Shown here: piece by piece, positions 6,682 through 16,842 of the stretch | Numbering within the stretch: position 1 is the first letter of the stretch | How the letters are laid out: the number at the start of each line of letters is the position of its first letter | IMG/VR virus record: IMGVR_UViG_3300044295_000290 | Location: 1-20,089 of that record | Length of the DNA stretch: 20,089 bases | Origin: a virus | Direction: 5' to 3' (one strand) | Position numbers and translations under genes: made by a program | The notes under the pieces: model-generated | What the model was told of the DNA's origin: nothing | Database searches by the model: none | Seen by the model: only the letters and a program-made list of their open reading frames with translations

Positions 6682-6689
6682 TATTTATT
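6682..6689 (-). promoter_or_regulatory. Late-type promoter box (AATAAATA) for the gp14-like operon
   Basis: On the - strand this reads AATAAATA, seven of eight matching the T4 late consensus TATAAATA. It ends eight bases before the ATG at 6673. By T4 geometry the transcript would start about two bases before the ATG, giving almost no leader. Confidence 0.55.
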
Positions 6690-6694
6690 GACGG

Positions 6695-6723
6695 TTGACC
6701 ATTAAATCTCAAACTGCTATAAT
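6695..6723 (+). promoter_or_regulatory. Sigma70-type promoter, extended -10, probably giving a leaderless mRNA
   Basis: TTGACC (6695-6700), a 17-base spacer, then TATAAT (6718-6723) preceded by TGC, an extended -10. Only six bases separate the -10 from the ATG at 6730, so a start seven bases after the -10 falls on the A of the start codon. Confidence 0.8.
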
Positions 6724-6729
6724 TTGGAC

Positions 6730-7011
6730 ATGAAAGTAGTTAAATTAAACCGCAGATTTCGGCAGTTCAAAGAAGCCGGGCACACAGTGGCCTTGCGTTT
6801 TGAGCACGGTCATACCCCAGATTCCATAGCAATCGAACGAGCATGCCGGGATCGGTTGAAAGAAAACGGCTGGAATCGCAATCACTCCTGGTATACCTAT
6901 TATGGTGATCGTCCCAGTCGCGATGCTGTTCGTCCATATTGGATCACATTTCGCAACGAAGCAGATCTTACTTTAGTACTACTTTCTGCTGACTTGACCA
7001 AAAAACCCTAA
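6730..7011 (+). CDS. Small conserved protein of unknown function, early-type
   Basis: A 93-residue basic protein (MKVVKLNRRFRQFKEAGHTV, then ALRFEHGHTPDS, and near the end RPYWITFRNEADLTLVLLS). I recall similar small 'hypothetical' proteins in aquatic T4-like phages but no function. No signal peptide, membrane segment or metal motif is visible. The ATG at 6730 is chosen over a TTG at 6724, which falls between the -10 and the likely transcription start. There is no Shine-Dalgarno sequence and practically no room for one, so translation is predicted to be leaderless. It is divergent from the late neck operon and heads the early-type cluster, with a second promoter embedded in its last codons. 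Confidence 0.7.
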   Translation: MKVVKLNRRFRQFKEAGHTVALRFEHGHTPDSIAIERACRDRLKENGWNRNHSWYTYYGDRPSRDAVRPYWITFRNEADLTLVLLSADLTKKP

Positions 7012-7022
7012 TATGCTACAAT
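6994..7022 (+). promoter_or_regulatory. Sigma70-type promoter for the 7051-8486 gene pair
   Basis: TTGACC (6994-6999), a 17-base spacer, TGC and then TACAAT (7017-7022). It has the same architecture as the promoter at 6695-6723. The -35 and most of the spacer lie inside the last codons of the preceding gene. The predicted start is near 7029, leaving a leader of about 22 bases that contains the ribosome-binding site. Confidence 0.75.
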
Positions 7023-7050
7023 ACACACTTGTTCAACAAAGAGGTGTGTT

Positions 7051-7338
7051 ATGCAGGCTATCAATTTTGTTGCAAAATATTCCGCCACTAACAAGTCCAA
7101 AGCCGTAGTGCCTTACGACAAAGTTAAAGCAACGGAAAAATGGGTAGAGTATGCACTGGACATTGTAGACATGTCCCACATGCTCATGAAGTCAGATTTT
7201 GACACTAAGTGGAAACTAATGGCTGCTCTTGAGATTGCAGAGCGCAAAAAGGCATACATGTACCGCCACAAGAATTTTGACATCAACCGCGCACTCAAAA
7301 TTTTTGATGCTGTAAAAAATCTGCCCAAAACTAAGTAA
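7051..7338 (+). CDS. Small helical protein of unknown function
   Basis: A 95-residue protein, Lys- and Met-rich, predicted mostly helical by eye (KVKATEKWVEYALDIVDMSH, KWKLMAALEIAERKKAYMYR). I do not recognise it and see no catalytic or metal-binding motif. The ATG has AAAGAGG six bases upstream, in contrast to the leaderless gene before it. It sits eight bases before the 379-residue gene and is surely co-transcribed with it from the promoter at 6994-7022. The early-type promoter suggests a role in takeover or DNA/RNA metabolism rather than in the virion; that is inference. Confidence 0.65.
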   Translation: MQAINFVAKYSATNKSKAVVPYDKVKATEKWVEYALDIVDMSHMLMKSDFDTKWKLMAALEIAERKKAYMYRHKNFDINRALKIFDAVKNLPKTK

Positions 7339-7346
7339 GGACTAAC

Positions 7347-8486
7347 ATGACAGCAATCGCATATAAAATTAAACCGCTCAATCCCCGAAGCGCCGACACC
7401 AAATATGTGGGCGTGGAACCCACATGGCGAACACAACCAGTTGAGGGCCGCATCAGTGCCCTGAGTAATGCATTTGGTTGGTACAACTACTTCTATGGCA
7501 AAAAAGAAGCCAAAGACATGATTGCTCAGTATTTGGATGCACACAACCGCACCAAAGACGCTAAGAAAATCCGTGCGCTGAGTGACAGCCAAATTCGACT
7601 GACCACTGGCTGGTTGTGCCGCATGAGCATGATGGGCTTGGAACTGGATGAACACGAACAAATCAAGCTGGACAATTTGATTGCTGAATTGTTAACGCTC
7701 AAAGAACAACGTCAAGAAGAAGTTGCGGCAGAAGAAGACGCTCCGGCCAAGCCCAACATTCAAGACCGCCTGCGCGAAAAGGTGTCGGAATGTGCTGGCG
7801 AGTTAGATGGTATGTTTGACGAGTTTGTGGCTGCAGGTGCCAAGATGTCAGCAGACTACAAACCTGTGAGCCTGATCCGTAGCATGAACATTGCTCCACA
7901 GTTGATCTATATCATCAGCGACATTTGGAAACGCAAACTGGAAGAATACGAAACTGTGATTGAGGGCAAAGACGGTGCGCTGGCCGAAGGCTATCGGCAT
8001 TTCAGCAAAATCCAGCTTCGCAACATTGTGAAGTTCTGCGAAACTGTGATTTCGGACTGCGGTGCTTATGTGCAGATCAAGAAAGTGGAACGCAAGCCAC
8101 GCAAGGTCAAACCTGTAAGCCCGGAAAAGAAAGCAGCCAAGTTCAAGATTCTTGCAGAATTTGCTGAACTCAAGCTGAAATCATTGCCTGCAACTGCCTT
8201 GGTTGACAAAGCAGAAGCATGGTTGTATGACACCAAGAAGCGCAAGTTGATCCACATTGTTGCAGATGAATACACCAAGGCGTTTACTATTAAGAACAAC
8301 AGTGTAATTGGCTTCAGCACTGTGGAAACGCTCCAGAAAACTGTGCGTAAACCTGCAGAAGTTGTCAAAGCAATCAGTAGTGCCGGCAAGCCCGCCGCCC
8401 GCAAGATCTTCAAAGATCTCACTACCACAGAAACAGCGTGGAATGCCCGAGGCACCGAAAACTTGGTAATCTTGCGTAGTTGGTAA
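7347..8486 (+). CDS. Conserved phage protein of unknown function (379 aa)
   Basis: A 379-residue soluble, Lys/Glu-rich protein. Three parts can be seen: an N-terminal helical domain with ISALSNAFGWYNYFYGKKEA and LTTGWLCRMSMMG (residues 36-95), a charged linker rich in E and A (about 115-135), and a C-terminal domain with ALVDKAEAWLYDTKKRKLIH, TKAFTIKNNSVIGFS and QKTVRKP (about 285-335). I recall related proteins in aquatic T4-like phages, where the C-terminal 'WLYxTKxRKL' unit recurs, but no assigned function. AAGGA five bases before the ATG supports the start. It follows the 95-residue gene by eight bases. No terminator follows it, so its mRNA should read into the gp13-like gene, where a hairpin hides the ribosome-binding site. 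Confidence 0.75.
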   Translation: MTAIAYKIKPLNPRSADTKYVGVEPTWRTQPVEGRISALSNAFGWYNYFYGKKEAKDMIAQYLDAHNRTKDAKKIRALSDSQIRLTTGWLCRMSMMGLELDEHEQIKLDNLIAELLTLKEQRQEEVAAEEDAPAKPNIQDRLREKVSECAGELDGMFDEFVAAGAKMSADYKPVSLIRSMNIAPQLIYIISDIWKRKLEEYETVIEGKDGALAEGYRHFSKIQLRNIVKFCETVISDCGAYVQIKKVERKPRKVKPVSPEKKAAKFKILAEFAELKLKSLPATALVDKAEAWLYDTKKRKLIHIVADEYTKAFTIKNNSVIGFSTVETLQKTVRKPAEVVKAISSAGKPAARKIFKDLTTTETAWNARGTENLVILRSW

Positions 8487-8494
8487 GCTAAATA
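8487..8494 (+). promoter_or_regulatory. Late-type promoter box (GCTAAATA) for the gp13-like gene
   Basis: The TAAATA core is 8489-8494, right after the stop of the preceding gene. By T4 late-promoter geometry transcription would begin near 8500, within the left arm of the hairpin at 8492-8516. Confidence 0.6.
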
Positions 8495-8516
8495 CAGGGA
8501 CCGGGAGTCCCTGTAT
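8492..8516 (+). promoter_or_regulatory. Hairpin covering the ribosome-binding site and start codon of the gp13-like gene
   Basis: Perfect 10-bp stem: ATACAGGGAC (8492-8501) pairs with GTCCCTGTAT (8507-8516) around the five-base loop CGGGA. The Shine-Dalgarno-like GGGAG (8503-8507) lies in the loop and stem edge, and the AT of the start codon is in the right arm. No T-run follows, so it is not a terminator. It should be complete only in read-through transcripts from upstream promoters. Confidence 0.8.
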
Positions 8517-9282
8517 GATCCAAGAGCAAGATACTCTTTCAACACTGAAGCAAAACCTAATAGAATACGTCAAACTACAGTTGGGCGGAGATATCATTGA
8601 CCTTGAGCTAGACCCTAGCCATTTCGAAGCTGCATATCAAAAGACCATTGGCACCTATCGTCAACGTGCCAACAATGCTTACGAAGAAAGTTACAGCTTT
8701 TTTACCCTGGTAAAAGACCAAAACATCTACACATTGCCGCAAGAAGTTATCAGTGTACGTCAGTGTTTTCGCAGAACATTTGGCGACGCTACAGGTCCTT
8801 TTGCGTCAAACTTTGACCCATTTGCTCAGGCCAGCTTGCAAGTTTATTTGATGAACTTCAACGTGGCTGGTGGCCTTGCCACTTACGATTTCTACAGCCA
8901 GTACACTGAGTTGGCTGCTAGAATGTTTGGTGGCTATTTCAACTACACATTCAACCCTGTGACCAAGAAGTTGCAGTTGATGCGTGACCCAAAAAACACT
9001 GGAGAAGCTGTGTTGATTTGGACTTACAATTTGAAGCCCGAAATCAACCTGCTGAGCGATCATCAAATTCAGCAGTGGCTCAAGGACTACATGGTTGCCA
9101 ACTGCAAGATGATCATTGGTGAAGCTCGTGAGAAGTTTGCCACAATCGCCGGACCCCAGGGTGGCGGCAGCTTGAACGGCACTGCTATGAAAGCCGAAGC
9201 CCAAACCCAAATGGACGCACTGATTGGCCAATTGGTAAACTACGTAGATGGCTCTCAACCATTAACCTGGGTTATCGGCTAA
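8515..9282 (+). CDS. 13: Neck protein (T4 gp13-like)
   Basis: A 255-residue protein resembling the gp13 neck proteins of aquatic T4-like phages: an N-terminal helical part (LKQNLIEYVKLQLGGDIIDL, YQKTIGTYRQRANNAYEESY), a central IYTLPQEVISVRQCFRR segment, LATYDFYSQYTELAARMFGG, NPVTKKLQLMRDP, and a C-terminal AGPQGGGSLNGTAMKAEAQ followed by LTWVIG. gp13 works with gp14 in the collar that lets the finished head join the tail. T4 gp13 is about 309 residues. The ATG at 8515 is set by GGGAG seven bases upstream. The gene stands apart from gp14 and gp15, which are on the other strand 1.8 kb away. Expression looks late (TAAATA) with a translational block on early read-through mRNA. The exact T4 name is less certain than its head-tail connector nature. 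Confidence 0.62.
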   Translation: MIQEQDTLSTLKQNLIEYVKLQLGGDIIDLELDPSHFEAAYQKTIGTYRQRANNAYEESYSFFTLVKDQNIYTLPQEVISVRQCFRRTFGDATGPFASNFDPFAQASLQVYLMNFNVAGGLATYDFYSQYTELAARMFGGYFNYTFNPVTKKLQLMRDPKNTGEAVLIWTYNLKPEINLLSDHQIQQWLKDYMVANCKMIIGEAREKFATIAGPQGGGSLNGTAMKAEAQTQMDALIGQLVNYVDGSQPLTWVIG

Positions 9283-14894: not shown

Positions 14895-16052
14895 ATGCCT
14901 ACATTTGGGCAAGATTTCCTTCAGGGATTCACAGCTAGCAATAACTTGCGTGATTACACTCACGCAAGCAAAGTTTTTACCACAAACTCTTGGGAACTTA
15001 AACCACGGTTCAAGTTCCTTTTCCATGTGGTGTTTACACTCAACGTGGGGCAGATAGCCGCACTGCGAAACTCCAAGGTATTTGGGGCAAGTCAAATTTA
15101 TAATCTCAGCCTGGCAGTAAAGACTATTGACTTACCTAAGTATACAATTTCCACTGACACTCTCAATCAGTACAATCGCAAACGTGTGGTTCAGACCAAG
15201 ATCAACTATGATCCAGTGACTGTGACATTCCACGACGACGGTGGCGACAACATTCGCGAAATGTGGTATCAGTACTACAGTTACTACTACAAAGATCCTG
15301 CACAAAAATACAGTAATATTTCTAACACTAACGGCAGTATTGGCGCTATAACCAATTCAACCAACAATATGGATTACAATGCCCGAGACATTTATGAACA
15401 AAGTCGGGTGGCCAACGTAAACGATTGGGGCTACATTGGAGAAAGTTACACCGACGGTGCCACTAGTGCTGCTAGTGGCAAGCCTCCGTTTTTTAGAGAC
15501 ATTCAAATCTACGGCTTTGACCAGCACAAATATGCAAGATATGTGTTGATCAATCCGCTAATCACCAGCTGGGCACATGACCAATATGACTACAGTCAAG
15601 GAGCAGGCATCATGCAAAACTCCATGACCATTGCATACGAAACCGTGAAGTACTACTCGGGTGGACTTGGCAAGCCCGACGCCAACGTTGCTTGGCCAGA
15701 TACTGCACACTACGACAATACTCCTAGTGCTCTCAGTCGTCCTGGCAGTACCGCTAGTATATTTGGCCAAGGTGGCTTGCTCAGTACTGGACAAGGTATC
15801 ATACAAGATTTGCAAAGCGGCAGCGTATTGGGCCTAATTGGTGCAGCACAAAAGGCCGGAGCTGCATACAATACTCTCAAAGGCAAAAATCTCAAGAGTA
15901 TTGTACAAGCTGAAGCCACGTCAATTGGTAAAGATGTTATTCAAGGCCAACTGCCTGGGGCGGTGAGATCAGTTGCAGGCAAGGCCGACGGCTGGTTGTT
16001 CCCTAATAAAACACTACAACGCCAAGCCAATACTGAAACTCCACCTATCTAA
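14895..16052 (+). CDS. Tube-fold baseplate protein (tail-tube initiator gp54 / cap gp48-like)
   Basis: A 385-residue protein. Residues 1-256 resemble an elongated tail-tube domain: WELKPRFKFLFHVVFTLN, FGASQIYNLSLAVKTIDLPK, NRKRVVQTKINYDPVTVTFH, DNIREMWYQYYSYYYKDP and ending MTIAYETVKYYSG. In T4, gp54 (320 aa) and gp48 (364 aa) are gp19 paralogues that start the tube on the baseplate. Size and position suggest one of these, but I cannot tell which. Residues 140-200 are a polar insertion, and the last 125 residues are Gly/Ala-rich with helical stretches. AAGGA eight bases before the ATG sets the start. It lies ten bases after the tube gene in the same transcription unit. Confidence 0.7.
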   Translation: MPTFGQDFLQGFTASNNLRDYTHASKVFTTNSWELKPRFKFLFHVVFTLNVGQIAALRNSKVFGASQIYNLSLAVKTIDLPKYTISTDTLNQYNRKRVVQTKINYDPVTVTFHDDGGDNIREMWYQYYSYYYKDPAQKYSNISNTNGSIGAITNSTNNMDYNARDIYEQSRVANVNDWGYIGESYTDGATSAASGKPPFFRDIQIYGFDQHKYARYVLINPLITSWAHDQYDYSQGAGIMQNSMTIAYETVKYYSGGLGKPDANVAWPDTAHYDNTPSALSRPGSTASIFGQGGLLSTGQGIIQDLQSGSVLGLIGAAQKAGAAYNTLKGKNLKSIVQAEATSIGKDVIQGQLPGAVRSVAGKADGWLFPNKTLQRQANTETPPI

Positions 16053-16055: not shown

Positions 16056-16414
16056 TGTCAACAGTAAATTATACCAATACCAAAGTAGATTTGACCGTCC
16101 GGGTCTTTGATAATTTTTACAAGTATGATGTAAATGTACCTGCTGCTGAGTATGATATTGTGTACAGCTTTTTCAAGCAAGCAATGTCCAATGCTCGTGC
16201 TGCTGGCAATTTTACTGTGAGTTTGTTTCAAGTGGCTGACCAAACAGGCATACCTGTGCTGACATTGTTGGACAACATGAAAGGCCAAACCGGTCTTGAT
16301 CTCACTGTCAGCATGGCTTATTACCTCAACAACATTCGCAGCAATGCCACGCTGTTGGGTGTCAACGCTCAAACAACTCCTAATTTTTACGCAGCTAGAA
16401 ACGTATTGCAATGA
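16055..16414 (+). CDS. Conserved T4-like phage protein of unknown function (beside gp4)
   Basis: A 119-residue protein: KVDLTVRVFDNFYKYDVNVP, AAEYDIVYSFFKQAM, GIPVLTLLDNMKGQTGLDLT and AYYLNNIRSNATLLGVN. I recall a similar small protein next to structural genes in aquatic T4-like phages with no assigned role. It has no Shine-Dalgarno sequence. The ATG comes two bases after the preceding stop, so ribosomes probably reinitiate. Its stop overlaps the gp4 start (ATGA). This tight packing between a baseplate gene and head-completion gp4 points to a virion or assembly function. It is not gp53, whose pattern I do not see. Confidence 0.7.
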   Translation: MSTVNYTNTKVDLTVRVFDNFYKYDVNVPAAEYDIVYSFFKQAMSNARAAGNFTVSLFQVADQTGIPVLTLLDNMKGQTGLDLTVSMAYYLNNIRSNATLLGVNAQTTPNFYAARNVLQ

Positions 16415-16842
16415 GCAAGTGGGCACAAGGCGTATATCAAGTGATCAATAGATCCAAATACGTGGGTCAAGGTCTGCCGCGCTATCGTTCGGGCTGGGAA
16501 CACAGTTTCATGCGCTTTCTTGATTCTAACGACCACATACTACAGTGGGCATCAGAAAGCATACGCATACCCTATCGACATCCTATCACTGGTAAAAATA
16601 CAACTTACGTTCCTGATTTTTTGATCACATATCGTACCAAAAACAATACTGTGAAAGCAGAACTAATTGAAATCAAACCCAAAGGACAAAGTGTTATTGC
16701 TGAAGGACAAAAGCCAAGGGATCGAGCAGTGGTAGCAATCAACTATGCCAAATGGGCCGCGGCCCAAGCCTGGTGCCAACGCCAGGGGCTGACATTTAGG
16801 GTCATTACCGAAGATGACATGTTTAGAAACGGCAGCAAGTAA
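16411..16842 (+). CDS. 4: Head completion nuclease (T4 gp4-like)
   Basis: A 143-residue protein (T4 gp4 is 150). It carries the gp4 pattern YRSGWEHSFMRFLDSN, ILQWASESIRIPYRHP, TTYVPDFLITYR and ELIEIKPKGQ. E30, D69 and E87-x-K89 fit a PD-(D/E)xK nuclease site. The second half has AVVAINYAKWAAAQAWCQRQ and ends in a basic/acidic tail. In T4, gp4 acts with gp2 and gp50/65 in finishing filled heads before tail joining. It overlaps the upstream gene by four bases (ATGA) and no separate ribosome-binding site is evident, so coupling is likely. The small terminase gene follows 17 bases downstream. Confidence 0.88.
   Translation: MSKWAQGVYQVINRSKYVGQGLPRYRSGWEHSFMRFLDSNDHILQWASESIRIPYRHPITGKNTTYVPDFLITYRTKNNTVKAELIEIKPKGQSVIAEGQKPRDRAVVAINYAKWAAAQAWCQRQGLTFRVITEDDMFRNGSK

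Follow-up and report, generated by a model that had tools for sequence, protein, structure and literature searches.

Among the closest described systems are late genes carried on early or middle transcripts, whose ribosome-binding site stays hidden in a hairpin until a late promoter drops the left arm. These include T4 soc, 49, I-TevI/II/III and segB, and mobE of phage Aeh1 (PMC2988022). In T4 e, a co-directional early gene lies upstream, a hairpin covers the start, TAAATA stands in the left-arm region and the late RNA is predicted to be open (PMC3014915). Hairpins are also found at the start of the late virion genes 25 and 38 of T4, where the structure sits between the Shine-Dalgarno sequence (SD) and the AUG and enhances translation (PMC3014915). 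Here we describe a hairpin at the start of a gp13-like neck gene in a 20,089-base virus fragment of a T4-like phage ("the window" refers to this whole fragment), whose relatives are jumbo phages. The locus appears to share the features listed above for e and for the soc group. Unlike e, which uses two boxes and pairs its SD within the right arm, the window has its SD in a small loop, a single box and a jumbo-type neck gene. The genes of the soc group differ in being mostly homing endonucleases or accessory genes, and their hairpin sequences are unrelated. A split-SD enhancer of the 25/38 type was rejected for the window, where the SD lies inside the hairpin, in the loop.

Table 1. Features at the neck-gene junction of the window.
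Feature	Position	Strand	Remark
Early-type promoter of the upstream operon (sigma70, extended -10)	6994-7022	+	TTGACC-17-TACAAT with TG, 10/12
95-aa ORF, first after the promoter	7051-7338	+	ORF
379-aa early-type gene, phrog_11903 (function unknown), directly 5' of the neck gene	7347-8486	+	family match
Late-type promoter box TAAATA	8489-8494	+	sequence; overlaps left end of hairpin
Hairpin left arm ATACAGGGAC	8492-8501	+	mostly 5' of predicted late start
Predicted late transcription start	8500 (8499-8502 plausible)	+	6th nt after box; T4 spacing and leaderless-gene calibration
Hairpin loop CGGGA	8502-8506	+	5 nt
SD GGGAG	8503-8507	+	5-nt loop plus first right-arm base
Hairpin right arm GTCCCTGTAT	8507-8516	+	extends into neck-gene start codon
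gp13-like neck / head-tail adaptor gene	8515-9282	+	phrog_211 (head-tail adaptor Ad2), E 2.3e-26

The neck gene is homologous to the 121Q gene annotated 'neck (T4-gp13-like)', and its protein is up to 42% identical to counterparts in phages of roughly 285-490 kb. Its ATG occupies 8515-8517, a 28-nt gap separates it from the 379-aa gene in the same direction, and the stop codon of the latter falls 5 nt before the stem. A family search with the 95-aa ORF (7051-7338) returned no match. The first-pass annotation had proposed a late box and, upstream of it, an early-type operon running into the neck gene with no terminator in between. The box was found as described, with GC rather than TA before it; the operon promoter matches at 10 of 12 positions, and a terminator scan of the + strand from 6994 to 8515 was empty. 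Elsewhere in the window, TAAATA at 16050 and 16850 overlaps or almost touches a start codon (TAAATATG; TAAATAGGTGATG), so that a start 6 nt downstream would remove the annotated ATG. Within the tail gene cluster, a 143-aa protein (16411-16842) gave a hit to PF08722, the N-terminal domain of TnsA-like endonucleases (E 1e-21).

The sequence from 8492 to 8516 reads ATACAGGGAC-CGGGA-GTCCCTGTAT. The perfect 10-bp stem that the first-pass annotation reported is exact in coordinates and pairing. Its further claim, that the stem traps GGGAG together with the start codon, holds for G8507 and for the A and U of the ATG; the GGGA of the SD lies in the 5-nt loop and is unpaired. In most relatives, unlike the window, the ATG lies just beyond the stem. 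Dinucleotide-shuffled windows are expected to hold 0.05 stems that are 10 bp or longer and have a loop of 3-8 nt, compared with three in the window, of which the other two (10618 and 14177) are terminator-like. The hairpin had no match in an Rfam search.

In the relatives, a sigma70-like promoter matching at least 10 of 12 positions is present in 74/74 distinct regions between gp14 and the 379-aa gene, mostly as TTGACC-17-TATAAT with an extended -10. The motif TTGACC-17-(TGn)TATAAT before this operon is very uniform and often occurs in two or three copies, as in the window (6695-6723 and 6994-7022). None of 138 homologues has TAAATA within 45 nt upstream of the 379-aa gene. From its upstream signals, the 379-aa gene behaves as an early-type gene. 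The neck gene begins no more than about 30 nt beyond it, and in relatives as well no terminator intervenes.

We examined the TAAATA box in two relatives, where 75/142 copies stand before the ATG of an ORF of 80 aa or more, compared with 9-23% for seven control hexamers. By this measure, the box is a gene-start element. Box-to-ATG spacing in these genomes is bimodal, with 28 genes at 4-7 nt, 41 at 15-31 nt and almost none between; in a third relative (G013) the short spacings have a sharp maximum at exactly 5 nt (23 genes). The short-spacing genes are best read as giving leaderless late mRNAs that would start some 6 nt past the box. Boxes only 4-7 nt before an ATG also occur in the window, at 6687 and 10816 (- strand), and in the relatives G002, G005 and G013 (28/75 genes in two of them); for such genes this spacing predicts a leaderless late mRNA and no SD on read-through RNA. 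In T4, the late promoter TATAAATA lies at -13 to -6 (PMC1524935), a spacing that places the late start of the neck gene at 8500. The first-pass annotation had predicted a start near 8500, in agreement with both the T4 spacing and the leaderless genes. A gp55-family sigma is encoded in 9/12 close relatives and in 7/7 records of other lineages; the window itself is a 20-kb fragment.

The hairpin has a folding energy of -15.9 kcal/mol. When we compared read-through RNA with the predicted late RNA, as the first-pass annotation had suggested, the cost of opening the region from SD to AUG fell from 16.3 to 4.9 kcal/mol. The same calculation gave 14.4 falling to 1.2-3.9 kcal/mol for T4 e, 8 falling to 4-5 kcal/mol for T4 soc, and 5.3 falling to 3.0 kcal/mol for the sheath gene, our control. 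Across 35 relatives with a hairpin, the median cost drops from 11.3 to 3.3 kcal/mol, and the late cost is nearly constant when the start is set anywhere from 5 to 8 nt past the box. Among all late leaders scored in CBB and in two window-lineage genomes (G002 and G005), gp13 shows the largest predicted gain, and several other late genes show moderate gains. A strict scan had made the box-linked hairpin appear unique to gp13; this idea was dropped when a broader energy scan found others. Start-region hairpins built on the box, with a large predicted late gain, were seen at further late genes, among them the tail sheath gene of CBB (in CBB, L276:14240, L281:13274, L281:14297 and L285:5989; elsewhere, G013 L300:18399, G005 L192:8264 and L193:5210, and G002 L189:8827). 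For late genes overall, strong hairpins occur in 13/87 leaders after a co-directional gene and in 1/31 others (p 0.07), and median gains do not differ with the direction of the upstream gene.

A scan of viral contigs yielded 154 window-lineage loci with a readable leader, and all 154 keep the TAAATA box before gp13. These loci comprise 48 distinct box-to-ATG leaders, most of which pair around the SD although their sequences differ; alternative stems include GGGAC/GTCCC, GGGGGAAC/GTTCCCCC, GGGTAC/GTACCC, GGAAC/GTTCC and AAGGAC/GTCCTT. Because MAFFT misaligned the variable loops, we aligned the stem arms in one fixed register, with the SD as anchor. Covariation in this register was 0.336, compared with 0.168 +/- 0.022 in shuffles that ignore kinship (0/500 as high), and slid registers reached at best 0.182. 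When 3' halves were exchanged between leaders and re-optimised, the observed pairing score of 9.76 was matched in 0/2000 permutations (at most 7.43), again ignoring kinship. Tree-based counts of double changes were set aside, since their register had been selected for pairing. Leaders of the sheath and kinase genes score 2.7, compared with 9.8 for gp13 leaders. Inner stem pairs have G-U in 10 cells and A-C in 4, a weak signal. These data, which answer a check proposed in the first-pass annotation, indicate that stem pairing is kept in relatives through compensatory changes.

Of 31 distinct leaders that adjoin the 379-aa gene, 29 carry the hairpin, compared with 7 of 18 behind inserted cassettes (p 6e-5); the two adjoining leaders without a strong hairpin are L155 and L148, and 11/18 cassette leaders have lost it. 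In many relatives (L008, L031, L034, L063, L077 and others), the 379-aa gene is separated from gp13 by one or two further genes of the same orientation, and one inserted gene shows, by eye, a radical-SAM-like CxxxCxxC motif. Most cassettes have their own late box at the start, usually on the 379-aa stop codon. A link between this box and hairpin loss proved weak, and the box does not tell which leaders lost the stem.

Other jumbo-phage lineages have different hairpins over gp13. In CBB, 121Q, RaK2-type phages, Muenster, Munch, XaC1 and relatives, the box lies within the left arm and the SD within the right arm, as in CCCC[TAAATA]...TTTAGGGG, and the hairpin stands behind a co-directional metabolic operon. 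According to the published promoter text for CBB, ATAAATA precedes its structural genes and the phage has a gp55-like sigma (PMC5259590). In these respects CBB is like the window lineage; that text names no gp13 hairpin, whereas one was found here. A third form, TAAATA-CTCTGTA...ACAGAGG, occurs in PA5oct-like metagenomic phages. PA5oct itself has a co-directional upstream gene but a gain of only 2.5 and lacks a strong hairpin. Little gain was found where the upstream gene is divergent (Atu_ph07, Phosso, Vibrio 2.275.O, SCTP-2, L221 and L249), and L220 has a separate intrinsic terminator upstream and no hairpin. Outside the window lineage, the median gain is 10.3 behind co-directional and 2.35 behind divergent genes (p 2e-4 by leader; p 0.095, merely suggestive, when collapsed to lineages).

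The best explanation of the locus, to which we assign a probability of roughly 0.78, is a translation switch of the T4 e/soc type that is off early and on late. Early in infection, transcripts from the host-type promoter at 6994-7022 would continue past the end of the 379-aa gene and enter the neck gene. Carrying both arms, this RNA would hold the SD in a tight loop that blocks ribosomes and would keep the start region closed, so that the neck protein would not be made early. Late in infection, a gp55-type sigma would use the box and RNA would start near 8500; lacking most of the left arm, it would form no hairpin and would be translated. As in e and soc, the upstream genes are co-directional and lack a terminator, a hairpin lies over the start, and the box is placed so that the predicted late RNA would miss the left arm; in the window lineage the stem also covaries. 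The first-pass annotation had arrived at this timing switch, and the box, the promoter, the covarying stem, the energetics and the sigma in relatives all support that inference. The absence of a hairpin in PA5oct, in L155 and in the cassette leaders that lost the stem is not explained by an early-off, late-on switch.

The main rival, which we regard as unlikely, is translational coupling, in which a ribosome ending the 379-aa gene melts the stem and ties neck synthesis to upstream translation. The short distance between stop codon and stem in the window speaks for coupling, as does the fact that the 379-aa gene of many relatives ends on the TAA of the box; since the stop codon adjoins or overlaps the box, a terminating ribosome might open the stem. 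T4 e has a similar layout, with nudE ending 37 nt before the e start codon, yet it is repressed about 100-fold on early RNA (PMC3014915). Coupling also fits poorly with a left arm placed where the late start would remove it, and with similar locks in other phages that stand behind unrelated upstream genes at gaps of 45-57 nt.

A protein operator, with the stem-loop bound by a repressor (autoregulation, as for T4 gp32 and gp43) or cut by a RegB-type nuclease, appears improbable. T4 does have RNA hairpin operators, its RegB cuts GGAG (PMC3014915), and GGAG recurs in the loop here. Stem sequence and loop length vary freely, though, and what stays constant is the SD. Structure inhibits RegB sites, and the nuclease was rejected as an actor when a search of 6 large relatives for PF10715 gave no match.

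Slightly less probable still is an intrinsic terminator that would keep early transcripts from reaching the neck gene. In XaC1 (L198), CBB (L200), 121Q (L202) and Munch (L203), a U run ends the gp13 hairpin, and there the structure may also act as a terminator that contains a late promoter. In the window, GATCC comes after the stem and start codon; neither the window nor its lineage has a U run there, the right arm enters the start codon and the terminator scan did not pick up the hairpin. Finally, a palindrome acting at the DNA level, or a chance inverted repeat with no role in RNA, which the overlapping promoter might favour by holding a dyad binding site, is very improbable, being largely refuted by a pairing that is conserved and strongly covarying though its sequence is not, and to a weak degree by the excess of G-U over A-C.

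The early-off, late-on switch at gp13 may be one case of something wider. It is possible, though we put it forward only tentatively, that jumbo T4-like phages as a rule guard their early-to-late junctions, either by box-centred hairpins, evolved independently at least three times over gp13, or by boxes 4-7 nt before the ATG that leave a gene readable only as leaderless late mRNA. The mechanism itself is familiar; the literature searched describes it neither for this gene nor for this phage group, and reports neither covariation evidence nor repeated re-invention. The switch at gp13 gives a prediction open to direct test in culturable phages such as CBB, 121Q and RaK2, in which the timing of structural genes is little studied. 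It would carry the T4 lysozyme timing trick over to a head-tail neck gene across a widespread jumbo-phage group, and the recurrence of unrelated hairpins over gp13 suggests that making neck protein early does harm or is a waste.
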